DNA from: Anaerococcus vaginalis ATCC 51170
GTDB lineage: Bacteria; Bacillota; Clostridia; Tissierellales; Peptoniphilaceae
Direction of reading: 5' to 3'
Length of the DNA stretch: 64,000 nucleotides
NCBI RefSeq assembly: GCF_000163295.1
Contig: NZ_GG700527.1
Location: 861,192 to 925,191 of the forward strand
The position numbers were made by a program, and so were the translations under genes. Below, one piece after another: positions 1 through 37,096 of this stretch (position 1 is its first letter; each line of letters begins with the position of its first letter). The notes under the pieces were generated by a model. The model worked only from the letters and a program-made list of their open reading frames with translations, did not search any database and was not told the origin of the DNA.

Positions 1-1121
1 AATTTTTTAAGTTTTTCATAATAAGAATCATATATCCAAGAAACATCAGTCCCATCAGCGTAGTTATCATTTAACAAACAATATAAGCTAATTGGCTCTT
101 TTTCTAATAACATTAAATTAATAATTTGATTTAAGCCTGTAGGATTTTTGACAAGATTTATTATCACTTCTTTATTTTCAATTTTAATTATTTCTTGTCT
201 ACCAAATACATGTTTTTGAAATTTTAAGCCTTCATAGATTTTTTCATAAGGGATTTCCAATTCTTTAGCAAGAGCTATTGCGCTTAAAGCATTATAAATA
301 TTATAAAATCCTCCAATTTGAGTTTCATAAATTTCTCCATTTACTTTAAATTTTGAAAAATTTGCATCCATAGAAATAATCTCTCCAATATTATAAGATA
401 ATTTAGGAGAATGAAAATCACATTCTGGGCAAGAAAAATCTCCCAAAGAAGAATAATTAACTAATTTATATTTTAAAATTGAATTACATTTTGGACATAA
501 AATTCCATCACTATTAAATTCTGCCTCAAGATTATAAGAATTAAATTCTTTATCATCTTCTCTTATTCCATAATAAATAGGATTATATTTTTTTAGCTCA
601 TCGTATGAAAAAATAGGCAAATCTCCATTGGCAATTATTTTTACATCACTACATTCGCTAAGTCCATCCATAATTTTTTTATAAACATTATAAATTTCTC
701 CAAATCTATCCATTTGGTCTCTAAAAATATTGGTTAAAATAACATAATCTGGTTTTAAAAATTTACTTATCCTAACAAGATTAGCTTCATCTACCTCCAA
801 GATCGCAAGTGCATTTTCATTTTTAGGAATATCCAACAAAACTGTTATTATACCTTGAATCATATTTGAACCAGAATCATTTGTAAAAACATTTTTATAG
901 TGCTTTCTCAAAATATTTGTAACAAAATGAGTTGTCATAGTCTTCCCATTAGTACCAGTTACAAAAATAAATTTTGTATTTTCGCTTAAAGCATCCAAAA
1001 TATCATTATCTAAATTATAAGCGATTTTCCCTGGCAAACTTGTTGCTTTATGATTTGTAAGTTTTAGTAAAAATTTACTAAATTTTGCAATTTTAATAAT
1101 TAATTTATCTTTTATATTCAT
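1..1121 (-). CDS. murT: MurT, lipid II isoglutaminyl synthase ligase subunit (3' end beyond window)
   Basis: Translated by hand from the ATG at 1121; 373 codons are visible and the frame runs off the left edge. MurT, with the glutaminase GatD, amidates the D-Glu of lipid II to D-isoglutamine on the cytoplasmic face of the membrane. Visible features are a Mur-ligase P-loop GTNGKT at residues 56-61, a MurT-type zinc ribbon with CPKC at 209-212 and CPEC at 231-234, LVKNPTG at 323-329, and DNYADGTDVSWIYD at 352-365, which holds conserved aspartates of the C-terminal domain. gatD would be expected just past the left edge. No Shine-Dalgarno precedes the ATG, and a promoter -10 lies only 7 nt upstream, so the mRNA may be leaderless. 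Confidence 0.93.
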   Translation of the reverse strand, partial: MNIKDKLIIKIAKFSKFLLKLTNHKATSLPGKIAYNLDNDILDALSENTKFIFVTGTNGKTMTTHFVTNILRKHYKNVFTNDSGSNMIQGIITVLLDIPKNENALAILEVDEANLVRISKFLKPDYVILTNIFRDQMDRFGEIYNVYKKIMDGLSECSDVKIIANGDLPIFSYDELKKYNPIYYGIREDDKEFNSYNLEAEFNSDGILCPKCNSILKYKLVNYSSLGDFSCPECDFHSPKLSYNIGEIISMDANFSKFKVNGEIYETQIGGFYNIYNALSAIALAKELEIPYEKIYEGLKFQKHVFGRQEIIKIENKEVIINLVKNPTGLNQIINLMLLEKEPISLYCLLNDNYADGTDVSWIYDSYYEKLKK

Positions 1122-33139: not shown

Positions 33140-33376
33140 CTAATCTAAAACTACTACTAAAGGAGTAGCATTTTCTACCCTATAATTTTCTACCTCATCT
33201 TTTATTTTCTCATAGCAATATTTTGAAAATATAATTAAAGCTAAGTCTTTTTCTTTTGTAAAATCTTTAAAATTATAAGATATTTCTTCTTCATTTTCTA
33301 AAATCAAACCATCAATTCCTCCAAGCCTAAAGCCAAGAAGAAAAGATAAGTCATTTGTAATTACTTTTGCTTTCAT
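33140..33376 (-). CDS. atpF: V/A-type ATPase subunit F (rotor)
   Basis: A 78-residue protein, short for subunit F (about 100), with the Rossmann-like start MKAKVITNDLSFLLGFRLGG, a middle LALIIFSKYCYEKI strand-helix near 47-60 and a final PLVVVLD strand. It lacks the usual C-terminal helix that inserts along D. The ATG at 33376, just after the K stop, was chosen; a TTG three codons upstream is also possible. Neither start has a clear ribosome site, which suggests coupling to K translation. Confidence 0.8.
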   Translation of the reverse strand: MKAKVITNDLSFLLGFRLGGIDGLILENEEEISYNFKDFTKEKDLALIIFSKYCYEKIKDEVENYRVENATPLVVVLD

Positions 33377-33377
33377 T

Positions 33378-33803
33378 TTAAGCAAATAAAATCATTATAG
33401 AAATAATTACACCAAAGATTGCAATACCTTCAGCAAGTCCTACGAAAATTATTGTTCTTCCAAGAATTGATGCATCTTCTGAAATTGCTCCAAGAGCTGC
33501 TGAGCCTACTTGACCTACTGCATATCCTGTTCCTATTGTTGCAAGACCTGTTGATAAGGCTGCCCCAATATATTTCAAGCCACTTGCTGTTTCACTAGCA
33601 CTTCCAGCTGTAGCTGCTTTAACACCATTTGGTAAAACTAAAACCAAAATCATAACCATTATTGGTATAAATGTAGATAAATTTATTTTTAAAGCTTTTC
33701 TTATTTTTTCTTTTGAGCTATCTTCATTATTTTTTAATAGATATAAACCTGAATAAATTGTTATAACAACGCACGCTAATGCTAATATTGAAATTAAAAT
33801 CAT
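33378..33803 (-). CDS. atpK: V/A-type ATPase subunit K (membrane rotor proteolipid)
   Basis: A 141-residue proteolipid with four hydrophobic segments at about 2-23, 44-63, 77-105 and 116-140. The last two form the c-ring hairpin with the ion-carrying E125 in GLAEGIAIFG. Q98 lies in the first helix of the hairpin at the place of the conserved glutamine in sodium-binding rings, but E125 is followed by glycine rather than serine or threonine, so ion choice is unclear. Shine-Dalgarno AAGGAG is good. Confidence 0.92.
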   Translation of the reverse strand: MILISILALACVVITIYSGLYLLKNNEDSSKEKIRKALKINLSTFIPIMVMILVLVLPNGVKAATAGSASETASGLKYIGAALSTGLATIGTGYAVGQVGSAALGAISEDASILGRTIIFVGLAEGIAIFGVIISIMILFA

Positions 33804-33813
33804 TATTTTCTCC

Positions 33814-35229
33814 TTATAATTTACTTATTGGACTAAATTTTTGTCCATCTCCCTTGTAATATTTACTAAACATTTCATAAAATTCTAATCTTAAACCTTG
33901 AATAAATACAATCATTCCTTCAAGTCCTATTATTAAAATATTTCCAAATATTAAAATAATAATTCCTATAATTCCTCCGCCAACAAGCTTACTCATAACT
34001 TCAAATGCCATATATAAACCGACGTGGTTTATAGCAAACGCACCTACTCTTGTAAAAGAAACAAGATTTGAAAATACAGAAAGCAAGGCTTCAATTATAG
34101 AAAATGAACTTTCTATATAATAATCAGCAGAAGATTGATCATATATTGGATTAATACCTAACATTTTTCTAGAAATTGGTTGTTTAAATATCATCAATAT
34201 AATTGATAATACAAGTAAAATTATTGAAAATTTCATTGGCAATGGATTAATTTTTACAATATTTAAAATGATTAAAATAAATGAAATCATCATAATTAAT
34301 CCTGCTATACCTTCTTTTCCAAAAACTCCTTCTTCTAAATCTTTTTGCTTGTGAAGTTTATTATAAATTCCTAAGATATAGGATATAAGAATTAGAATAA
34401 CTCCAAAGGCGACTGAAGCAACTAATACTTTTAAAATATTATCAAATGGTTTAATTAATAATGTTGGTATTAAATCTTCAATTCCAAAAAATGATCCATA
34501 CATTATGCCAAAAAAGCAAGCAGAAAATCCTATTCTTCTTACTAATTGACCAAATATTTTATTTTTCTTTTCTACTAGAAAGCTAGCCAATATAAAAATT
34601 AATCCCTGTCCTAGATCACCAAACATCATTCCATACAAAAGCATATAAGTTATTGCGAAAAATCCTGTCGGATCTATTTCATTGTAGTTTGGTGCTCCAT
34701 ACATATTAACCAAAAACTCAAAGGGCCTAGTTAGTTTATTATTTTTTAATTTAGTTGGTGGGTTTGCTATTGTCTGGCTATTTTTTTTTTGATCTACCAA
34801 ACTGTCTTCATATTTTTCTACAGAATCTTTTACAACTTGTAATTTTGATTCTGGTACCCAACCTGAAAGATAAAAATACTTTCTACCTTTTAACATTTTA
34901 TCTTTTATTTTAGAAGACTTCTTATAAAAATCTATAGTTTTTGGAAGGTTTTTTAATTCATCTATATTATCATTTTTTATTTTTTCAAGATTTTCATTTA
35001 TCTTTTTAAGCTTAATTTTATTTTCTTGGTATTCTTTTTTTATCTCTTCTAAACTTTTATTTTCTGGAATATCCTTATCAATAAAACCCAAAGATGAAAT
35101 TGTTCTATTTACTTCATCTTCAACACTTTTTGGATAAACTAAAAGATAATCTTCATTCCCACTTTCAATAGATTGGTTTATATTATTTTCATTCTTATCT
35201 TTAAATCCTAATTTTTCCAATAATTTCAT
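33814..35229 (-). CDS. V/A-type ATPase subunit I, C-terminal part (split gene)
   Basis: A 471-residue protein equal to the second half of subunit I. It has an N-terminal stretch of about 25 residues without clear family match, then the second half of the distal lobe from about residue 26 (EDYLLVYPKS...RTISSLGF) and the returning coiled coil at about 60-110. The proximal lobe includes YFYLSGWVPE near 119-128 and the PPTKLKNNKL linker near 160. A membrane domain of seven or eight helices runs from about 185, starting MYGAPNYNEIDPTGF, with the channel arginine expected in the VSFTRVGAFA stretch near 395. It has its own AAGGCAGG ribosome site. It lies in the same frame as the preceding gene, 12 nt after its TAG. 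Confidence 0.88.
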   Translation of the reverse strand: MKLLEKLGFKDKNENNINQSIESGNEDYLLVYPKSVEDEVNRTISSLGFIDKDIPENKSLEEIKKEYQENKIKLKKINENLEKIKNDNIDELKNLPKTIDFYKKSSKIKDKMLKGRKYFYLSGWVPESKLQVVKDSVEKYEDSLVDQKKNSQTIANPPTKLKNNKLTRPFEFLVNMYGAPNYNEIDPTGFFAITYMLLYGMMFGDLGQGLIFILASFLVEKKNKIFGQLVRRIGFSACFFGIMYGSFFGIEDLIPTLLIKPFDNILKVLVASVAFGVILILISYILGIYNKLHKQKDLEEGVFGKEGIAGLIMMISFILIILNIVKINPLPMKFSIILLVLSIILMIFKQPISRKMLGINPIYDQSSADYYIESSFSIIEALLSVFSNLVSFTRVGAFAINHVGLYMAFEVMSKLVGGGIIGIIILIFGNILIIGLEGMIVFIQGLRLEFYEMFSKYYKGDGQKFSPISKL

Positions 35230-35241
35230 AAAACCTGCCTT

Positions 35242-36114
35242 CTAGTCAATAATCTTTTCAAAGAATTCTTTTACTAACTTATCTTTCTTTTCATTAAAAA
35301 CTTTTTTACTTTCTAATTTTTGCTCTTCGTAAAATTCTTCTATTTCTTTTTTCTTATAATCCGCTTCTTTTAAAATATCATCATAAATTTTATTGGAATC
35401 ATCCTTAGTTTTTGAATCATAATTTTTGTTTAGTTCAAGACTAACTTTATTAACATTCTCTTTTTCATTTTTTAGTATTACATCAGTATCATTTCTTAAT
35501 TTTGTCGTTTCATCATCTATACTATAAATACTTTTCAAAGCTTCCTTATTAGTTTTTATATTTGGATCATTTTTTTGTAAATGAATAATTAATGACGGTA
35601 TAGATTCGTAATTATTTTTTAATATAAACCTACCGTCTTTACTAACTTCTCCCAATCTATAATTAAAATAATTTAAATTTGTTATTTTATTTATATTTAT
35701 TTCTTCATTTTCAAGTGCTTGTAAGTTATTTATATATTCTTCAAGCTTTTTGTTTTTTTCTTCTAAATCTTTTTTCTTTTCTATATTATCTTCAAGCATT
35801 TTTAGTAAATTTTTAAGTTTTTCATCATTAATTCTTTTTCCATTATCGGAATCTTCTAAATTCAAAAATTCTTTAATATCTTCAAGATTTTTTATAAAAG
35901 TAGAATCTATTTTTTCAAAGCTATCTAGCTCATTAAAGTCCTCTGTTTTATCGATATTTTCTTCGCTAGCTTTTATAGAAAACTCTCTGTTTTGTACTTG
36001 CCTAAAGGCATCAACTTGATCAAATTCATCAATGTTAATTAAATCTTCAAGAAAATCATCTAAATTTTCAAGTTTAGCCATTATATTAACTAAGTGCATT
36101 TTTTCGACAGCCAT
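35242..36114 (-). CDS. V/A-type ATPase subunit I, N-terminal part with G/H-like helical tail
   Basis: A 290-residue protein. Residues 1-48 match the start of subunit I (AVEKMHLVNIMAKLE, then an FRQVQNREF strand). Residues about 100-135 form the outgoing coiled coil, and 145-183 the first half of the distal lobe (LNYFNYRLGEV...SIPSLIIHL). Normal subunit I continues here, but this protein changes to a charged, probably helical segment of about 105 residues. Its end, from about 240, resembles the C-terminal part of stator subunit G/H. The gene ends at TAG; the C-terminal half of subunit I follows in frame after four codons. AGAGGTGAT precedes the ATG. The assignment of residues 1-183 is firm; the G/H resemblance is by eye. 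Confidence 0.75.
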   Translation of the reverse strand: MAVEKMHLVNIMAKLENLDDFLEDLINIDEFDQVDAFRQVQNREFSIKASEENIDKTEDFNELDSFEKIDSTFIKNLEDIKEFLNLEDSDNGKRINDEKLKNLLKMLEDNIEKKKDLEEKNKKLEEYINNLQALENEEININKITNLNYFNYRLGEVSKDGRFILKNNYESIPSLIIHLQKNDPNIKTNKEALKSIYSIDDETTKLRNDTDVILKNEKENVNKVSLELNKNYDSKTKDDSNKIYDDILKEADYKKKEIEEFYEEQKLESKKVFNEKKDKLVKEFFEKIID

Positions 36115-36118
36115 TTTA

Positions 36119-37096
36119 TCACCTCTTTATTATATAATGTTTCTTTTCATCCTTATCAAAAGTTTCATCAAATTCAAGCATACTTATGATATTTTTATTA
36201 GAAATTTCCATCATATCAACTATATAAATTAATTTGAGCAAATCATATTTTGAATTATTTAATCTTTTTGAATTATCACTCAATAAATCTTGCTTTGCTT
36301 TATAGAAATTAGAAGAATTATTAAATAATGAATTATAAGGACTTCCTAATATTTTTTCCTTAACTTTATCTAGACTTAATTTTGATAATTTTTTTAAATC
36401 TTCTGTTTTTAGATATTTGCCTCCTTCAATTAAATAATTAAATATTTCATAATCATTTAAAATAAAGTAGTTTTTTAATCTAAATAACATTTCAATATTA
36501 AAAATATCAATTTCTTTACCTATAAATTCTCTAAGCTCCTTGCCAAGATTTTTTGGAAGTTTTTTAGTTTCTTCTAAAAGGTCTCTATAATAAAATTTAT
36601 TTAATGAATTAGATATTAGAAAAATTATAGAATCTTTTTGCATATTTTCATTTAAAAATGGATAAAGAGTTCTATAATACCTAGTTGACTTAGATTTTTC
36701 CACAAAAGTTTGAAAATCATCGTCTTTTGATACATTTATATTTTGAGAAAATTTTTCTCTTTTTATAATATCTAAACTATCTTTCAAATGCTCATTTAAA
36801 ATCGCCTGAACAATTAATTGAATTAATTGTAGTTCAAATTTTGAAATATATTTTATAAAGAAATTTTTCTCTTCTCCTTTAAGAAATTTCAAAAATGAAT
36901 TTAAATCGTCATATAAGCTATTGGAAAGAAAAATTTCCATATCTTTTTTAGAGTAAATATTAGGTATTTCACTTTTATTTGCTCTAATAATATCTAATTT
37001 TCTTTCCAAACTGTCTTCGTACAATAAATCTCTACAAATTTCTTTACTAGGCAATTTCCCAAGTTTAGCTTTTGCTTTTACTACATAAGCTCTCAT
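36119..37096 (-). CDS. atpC: V/A-type ATPase subunit C (rotor-ring coupler)
   Basis: A 325-residue funnel-shaped subunit that connects the DF rotor axle to the K ring. The family motifs seen are the N-terminal YVVKAKAKLGKL at 4-15, STRYYRTLYPFL near 135-146, and KEIDIFNIEMLFRLKNYF near 195-212. It is the first ATPase gene here, 20 nt after miaB, while in most operons C lies between E and F. AGAAGG lies 4 nt before the ATG. Confidence 0.88.
   Translation of the reverse strand: MRAYVVKAKAKLGKLPSKEICRDLLYEDSLERKLDIIRANKSEIPNIYSKKDMEIFLSNSLYDDLNSFLKFLKGEEKNFFIKYISKFELQLIQLIVQAILNEHLKDSLDIIKREKFSQNINVSKDDDFQTFVEKSKSTRYYRTLYPFLNENMQKDSIIFLISNSLNKFYYRDLLEETKKLPKNLGKELREFIGKEIDIFNIEMLFRLKNYFILNDYEIFNYLIEGGKYLKTEDLKKLSKLSLDKVKEKILGSPYNSLFNNSSNFYKAKQDLLSDNSKRLNNSKYDLLKLIYIVDMMEISNKNIISMLEFDETFDKDEKKHYIIKR

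Follow-up and report, generated by a model that had tools for sequence, protein, structure and literature searches.

The stator of a rotary ATPase resists the torque of the motor, and it raises two old questions: how the stalks are anchored in the membrane arm, and why there should be one, two or three of them. The stator of T. thermophilus has the composition a1E2G2, and passages of the structural report describe an arm whose two alpha/beta subdomains hold the proximal and distal EG stalks, with the N-terminal region of EG bound at the distal alpha/beta subdomain (PMC7367684). Passages on the mycobacterial F-type ATP synthase describe a b-delta fusion, in which a stator stalk subunit is joined to its anchoring partner; in M. 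smegmatis one domain of this protein is duplicated, and its copies attach the N-termini of two of the three alpha subunits (PMC8617483, PMC5709465). It is probably the closest parallel in print to the locus analyzed here, as a similarity of principle: the b-delta fusion is F-type, is made of different proteins and is anchored atop the head, and the same passages describe no split partner. Among the matches listed in the open-licence literature, no title or abstract start reports a split of V-ATPase subunit I, and a passage search of a stalk review (PMC6131620) returned neither "fusion" nor "split".

Here we analyze a 64,000-nucleotide stretch of Anaerococcus vaginalis ATCC 51170 DNA (the window), from a genome of 1.89 Mb, which carries a V-ATPase operon on its minus strand in the order C, I_N plus tail, I_C, K, F, E, A, B, D (Table 1). 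With the bacterial and archaeal V/A-ATPase subunit I (PF01496), such as that of T. thermophilus, I_N and I_C share the arm, the membrane domain and the operon neighbors, a likeness judged from I_C exceeding the family cut-off, from I_N compared with relatives and, more tentatively, from the predicted fold. Unlike the single chain of that family, this subunit has two chains, with the break in the distal lobe and a G-homologous helix on the first. Two ORFs of the operon are taken to be A and B from operon context, and a tree of these two proteins (40 of 41 loci, L052 being omitted as it has neither) places them nearest Anaerococcus obesiensis ph10 (99% over 1048 columns).

Table 1. Features of the V-ATPase operon in the window, followed by the free arms of genus g40 (positions within the named loci).
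Feature	Position	Strand	Basis
Subunit C, 325 aa, first gene of the operon	36119..37096	-	Pfam vATP-synt_AC39 2.5e-30
I_N plus tail, 290-aa ORF	35242..36114	-	
I_N, the 290-aa product from residue 1 to 183; N-terminal half of subunit I's cytoplasmic arm, through part 1 of the distal lobe	35566..36114	-	Match to residues 1-180 of relatives' full-length I
Tail (putative G), residues 184-290 of the 290-aa product	35245..35565	-	Profile-profile match to free G; one long helix predicted
Stop codon of I_N-G and 12-base gap before the I_C start, with a Shine-Dalgarno-like stretch	35230..35244	-	Sequence
I_C, 471 aa	33814..35229	-	Pfam V_ATPase_I 7.7e-30; alignments
I_C layout: N-terminal extension, residues 1-25; distal-lobe part 2, helix and proximal-lobe part 2, 26-168; membrane domain, 169-471			
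Subunit K, proteolipid, 141 aa	33378..33803	-	Pfam ATP-synt_C 4e-15
Subunit F, 81 aa, listed from TTG	33140..33385	-	Pfam ATP-synt_F 1.6e-12
Subunit E, 206 aa	32505..33125	-	Position; Pfam vATP-synt_E 0.0011 and NCBIfam PRK03963 2.9e-05, both under cut-off
Subunit A (presumed), 591 aa	30776..32551	-	ORF; sequence retrieves the A ORF of relatives' operons
Subunit B (presumed), 457 aa	29406..30779	-	ORF; sequence retrieves the B ORF of relatives' operons
Subunit D, 207 aa	28790..29413	-	Pfam ATP-synt_D 1.2e-40
344-aa free arm without membrane domain	L104 4964-5998		
344-aa free arm without membrane domain	L105 9905-10939		
344-aa free arm without membrane domain	L106 4203-5237		

An earlier note, made from the letters of the window, had read the 290-residue product as subunit I up to about residue 183 and the 471-residue product as the rest of it, and our comparisons bear out both assignments. 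I_N matches the first ~180 residues of subunit I in the family's other genera, mostly at 23-33% identity and with a best value of 6e-22; the ORFs that it retrieves are nearly all open frames of about 640-690 aa, the exceptions being one at a contig end (G065) and one with a broken frame (G119). I_C exceeds the PF01496 cut-off (104 bits vs 30.7) and matches NCBIfam subunit I from about residue 30, corresponding to position 183 onward of model NF004430. Neither Pfam nor NCBIfam recognizes I_N, whose best subunit I score was 0.29, and the I_N-G protein is missed by both collections, a warning for annotation. Given two products of 290 and 471 aa instead of one chain of ~650 residues, and the conservation of this arrangement in the genus, we regard the pair as a split variant of subunit I. 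The spacing between I_N-G and I_C in 21 loci ranges from -17 (an overlap) to 17 bases as listed, and is 0 in eight.

The 290-aa protein is matched over its whole length in all 31 genomes of the genus (in G010 with a broken frame) and in two genomes of genus g17, so that the survey of relatives suggested in the earlier note finds the same split in 33 of the 130 family genomes searched. That note had also considered full-length subunit I at the same locus in relatives: it is present in other genera, but all 31 genus genomes have the split form. The DNA of the split was examined for 30 of the 33 genomes, with L007, L009, L013 and L023 represented by their twins L078, L073, L058 and L076, three of which have a broken frame. 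Across loci L055-L082 the I_N-plus-tail ORF is followed by I_C in 27 of 28, and the contig of the other, L079, begins inside I_C; one or other frame is broken in 3 of the 27 (L058, L073 and L078). In L073 and L078 the I_C break sits in a homopolymer run and close relatives, the window included, are intact, making sequencing error the likely cause. For three species pairs dN/dS lay at 0.05-0.12 in I_N, 0.12-0.16 in the tail and 0.08-0.10 in I_C's cytoplasmic part, figures that are rough because most dS values are near or above 1. Both I_N-G and I_C are under purifying selection, and the split is genuine and conserved. A search of 391 genomes drawn from the class matched 50 (at most six candidates scored per genome); at that same depth, whole-length I_N-G in a short ORF occurred only in three genomes of the window's genus, and short ORFs with partial matches were found in G363 (402 aa) and G413 (138 aa).

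The origin of the tail becomes apparent when the operons of relatives are compared. In 12 other genomes of the family, I_N matches a full-length subunit I and the tail alone (query residues 169-191 to 286-289) matches a separate ORF located ~1 kb upstream. At 11 of 12 relative loci compared, a free G-like gene lies upstream of C, in every case with a full-length I; the twelfth (L052) is a contig-end piece. The order in the relatives is the free gene (102-171 aa as listed), C, I (641-663 aa), K, F, E, A, B, D. In one profile-profile comparison the tail and the free gene aligned over 103 columns, ungapped, with a probability of 98.9 and an E-value of 1.3e-17, and it is at about residue 190 of the fusion, i.e. 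at the joint, that the free gene usually has its start Met. Chance matches between helical sequences are easy to obtain, and we therefore ran a control with shuffled tails. Against the free-gene profile, all 26 tails scored 5.8e-07 or better; of 1040 shuffled tails none did better than 0.29, and no other ORF of the window or the second-operon locus L005 did better than 0.37 (E-values for 10,000 sequences). These profile comparisons show the tail to be homologous to the free gene that heads the relatives' operons.

The free gene is absent from its old place in the split lineage, where a miaB-like ORF (as we take it to be) occupies the site before C, in the window as elsewhere; the same holds in a MAG of another genus (G065), whose contig stops ahead of any split site. 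The tail is fused, without a free form, in the window and in all intact copies examined. A second copy of the tail was found neither within the 27 split loci searched nor elsewhere in the 31 genus genomes (E <= 0.01, at most 18 first-round candidates scored per genome), the second match in G010 being the same locus. Subunit G thus appears, as far as sequence can tell, to have left its own gene and entered subunit I at the lobe where the EG stalk attaches.

We infer that the free gene is subunit G from its position, length and helix content. It lies under the curated G/H cut-offs, with some copies scoring better against unrelated models, so the name is not one that the databases assign; nevertheless the relatives' operons otherwise hold C, I, K, F, E, A, B and D, which leaves G as the one missing part and the free gene as its sole candidate. 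The 290-aa product has no G/H match in Pfam or NCBIfam, the free genes of seven relatives likewise fall under the G/H cut-offs of both, and nothing in the whole genome exceeds the cut-off of PF16999. A PDB sequence search with the I_N-G profile returned nothing significant (best 0.2). No F-type b or delta match was found for the 290-aa product (Pfam to E 10, NCBIfam to E 1), and b-type matches occurred at chance level only (0.11 for a homologue, 0.31 for the I_N-G profile in the PDB). The resemblance of the tail to G/H proposed in the earlier note therefore holds with respect to the relatives' free gene but does not extend to any curated G/H model; its larger proposal, an I(N)-G fusion with a separate I(C), is supported at the level of sequence. 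Like V/A-ATPase G/H, the tail is short, is predicted to form a single long helix and is homologous to the relatives' free gene; it differs in being covalently rooted in subunit I and not free, and in falling under the curated cut-offs.

A free G/H gene in the genome, which the earlier note had counted against its proposal, does exist, but as the first gene of a second V-ATPase operon; the tail does not match it in a genome search, nor does the free-gene profile. This gene is the only free G found in the window's genome. This operon (L005 2373-10770) likewise encodes a V-ATPase with I and G; it differs in having a free G (107 aa), a full-length I (646 aa) and the order G-I-K-E-C-F-A-B-D, in which E and C are assigned by place. 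All 31 genus genomes yielded the I and G of this operon (one I copy and one G copy with frame breaks), implying two different V-ATPases per cell.

To place the two chains on a known fold, we examined AlphaFold2 models in which I_N-G and I_C were joined by reading through the stop, and because of this joining their fit to known structures is no proof of assembly in trans. The model of the window chain has strands at residues 150-158 and 175-178 in I_N, a helix at 186-286 and a strand at 320-328 in I_C; its confidence is low (pLDDT 62.8, pTM 0.36), with the proximal lobe badly predicted. Foldseek TM-scores against known subunit I/a structures were about 0.3. The read-through chain aligned with T. 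thermophilus subunit I (6r0z_N) at Z 14.6 over 497 residues, with an rmsd of 20.5, a value so large that the domains of the model are evidently not placed well. Alignment with the crystal structure of an isolated arm (3rrk) gave Z 9.2 over 216 residues (rmsd 6.0), covering model residues 58-417 and hence both halves, at a Z within the tool's stated common range for helical proteins. A model of the arm part only, from A. nagyae (L075; pLDDT 74, pTM 0.48), aligned with residues 2-322 of 6r0z_N at Z 14.7 over 295 residues (rmsd 6.7). In this protein, which has two copies of the I_C cytoplasmic half, strands of at least three residues were predicted in I_N and in copy 2 (462-604) and none in copy 1 (317-448), which consists of helices and two short bridges only. 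Over both read-through chains, the alignments favor an arm of two alpha/beta lobes linked by a coiled coil, with low to moderate confidence.

We consider it very likely that a single stator subunit is made in two pieces from these genes, with the stalk subunit G fused to the first piece, so that arm and stalk form a continuous strut. I_N would fold with residues 26-168 of I_C into the usual arm of subunit I, the latter supplying the second parts of both lobes, distal and proximal, and the return helix. As the break separates the distal lobe's two parts, the G helix would exit about where an EG stalk is held, and its N-terminus would be tied to that lobe by the peptide chain instead of by the usual non-covalent hold. 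The fused G would pair in a coiled coil with subunit E, its presumed partner, reaching up to the catalytic head and making one strut of arm and stalk, and the adjacent, tightly spaced ORFs would keep the amounts of I_N, G and I_C linked. In terms of origin, a free G at the head of a G-C-I operon would have been lost and re-inserted within I. In one possible route, G-C-I would have been duplicated in tandem and then have suffered two deletions, one running from the second half of the first I up to the start of the second G, the other removing the second C and the first half of the second I; loss of the first G would then yield the observed order. On this proposal, evolution would have severed the arm at the lobe where the stalk docks and fused the stalk in at the break; in some species it would also have duplicated the docking half.

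That doubling concerns the cytoplasmic half of I_C, which is present in tandem, with both half-lobes and the helix kept, in 10 of 30 split loci: seven from Anaerococcus (L071, L072, L074, L075, L076, L081 and L082), one from a MAG (L077), and G033 and G035. These are species other than the window's, whose I_C has one half. The seven Anaerococcus loci form one group in the A+B tree (100/100) and L077 is placed elsewhere, a position that favors two origins. A single ancient origin is not firmly rejected by the AU test (p 0.066 with all nine first copies taken together, 0.44 with L077 left out and eight remaining), and in the free module tree the 16 copies of the octavius group, tandem-half species such as A. 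octavius, form one group (98/98). The module tree has 48 rows; it omits L006-L031 and L033-L035 as twins (although L021, L026 and L035 have no twin there), L013, L058 and L079 as broken or cut, and every locus from L083 upward. A broken frame explains why two module pieces appear in L013 and L058, and neither was counted as duplicated. The doubled half is a candidate second docking site for I_N-G, a possible answer to the stoichiometry question raised in the earlier note that the note had not foreseen. Comparing species that have one half with those that have two amounts to a natural experiment in stalk number and in elastic coupling.

Extra arms of other kinds occur in family f2 of the same order, in which 14 of the 28 genomes searched were matched. 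Three f2 genomes, all of genus g40, encode a 344-aa free arm between C and a full-length I (Table 1), ending where the membrane domain would start. The free arm of L104 is 43% identical to the arm of subunit I in the same operon, and dN/dS between the free arms of L104 and L106 is 0.14. In G508 the order is free G, a 468-aa protein (L108 4778-6184), C and full-length I, the 468-aa protein consisting of an arm (residues 1-332) with a C-terminal G-like tail. This tail is 35% identical to the free G of its own operon over 99 positions and scored 1.5e-14 against a profile built on four free genes of f2 (best among 200 shuffles 39), 2.3e-04 against the f1 free-gene profile (best shuffle 3.7) and 0.55 against the Anaerococcus tail profile (best shuffle 3.7). 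Together with the Anaerococcus fusion, it indicates that arm and G were joined at least twice.

Two alternatives would deny that a stalk has been fused to a split arm. Frame breaks in a few deposits (L058, L073 and L078) could speak for a sequencing error or a decaying pseudogene, but the arrangement is shared by 33 genomes with low dN/dS, a crude ribosome-site motif precedes I_C in 17 of 21 loci, and the tail is foreign to a normal subunit I; the conservation of the split makes this explanation exceedingly improbable. It is also quite unlikely, in our judgment, that the tail is another kind of coiled coil, with a role in assembly or regulation, and the free gene at the operon head an accessory. 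Such a reading would account for the curated G/H cut-off never being reached and for the better scores of other families (transposase 2.2e-05 for the free gene of L046, WXG100 0.0008 for that of L048). Against it, G is the one part missing from operons that are otherwise complete, length and helix content fit G, subunit H is the best NCBIfam match of the L047 free gene (0.056), and the same type of gene was fused to an arm a second time in G508.

The remaining alternatives accept the fused stalk and concern the number of stalks, since with one I_N-G per I_C there is a single G, against two in T. thermophilus. In the window's species a single I_N-G gene is accompanied by one acceptor half and, in the second operon, by a foreign free G; the enzyme of this species could have one stalk, two I_N-G chains with one I_N partnerless, or a borrowed G. 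A serious alternative, though one we hold slightly doubtful, is that two I_N-G chains are used, and that each makes up one arm together with an I_C half and bears an EG stalk of its own: the octavius-type I_C would offer two halves, and single-half species would have either a partnerless second I_N or one stalk. The tandem halves, with half-lobes and helix kept, speak for this, as do the constraint on copy 1 (dN/dS 0.16-0.39 in four pairs), the extra arms in the three g40 genomes and the arm-G protein of G508; the strandless copy 1 predicted in L075 looks as if it lacked a partner. However, the window's I_C has a single half, and copy 1 evolves faster than copy 2 (0.07-0.23 in the same pairs, copy 1 being higher in three of four), its match ending 5-17 positions short except in L076. 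Copy 1 does form two short bridges in the L075 model, and one single-chain model tells little; the extra arms, for their part, may serve regulation or assembly. We put forward tentatively, and with a little more doubt, a modular stator in which each arm is an I_N-G docked on an I_C half, with one arm per stalk. If true, the doubled half of the octavius group, the free arm of g40 or the arm-G protein of G508 would add another arm-stalk unit to one membrane domain, and the stator would differ in layout from the known type, where both stalks share one arm. It seems unlikely that, with the fused G forming the distal stalk, the free G of the second operon is borrowed for the proximal one; the I and G of that operon accompany the split in all 31 genus genomes, but the tail does not match its G and the operon has its own candidate E (L005 7499-8050, by place and size). 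A search for a genus genome without the second operon, in which the fused G would be the cell's only G, yielded none among the 31, and G065, G068 and G069 also carry its I, which keeps such borrowing under consideration.

Two smaller features of the window operon accompany the continuous strut that we favor. The N-terminal extension of I_C (window 35155-35229, MKLLEKLGFKDK...) is common to close species and to the MAGs L060 and L061, and it resembles part of the distal-lobe module, a likeness that hints at what may be left of a first tandem copy since lost. In subunit K the Pfam proteolipid match covers the C-terminal 60 residues only, and the N-terminal part resembles, by eye, additional membrane segments.
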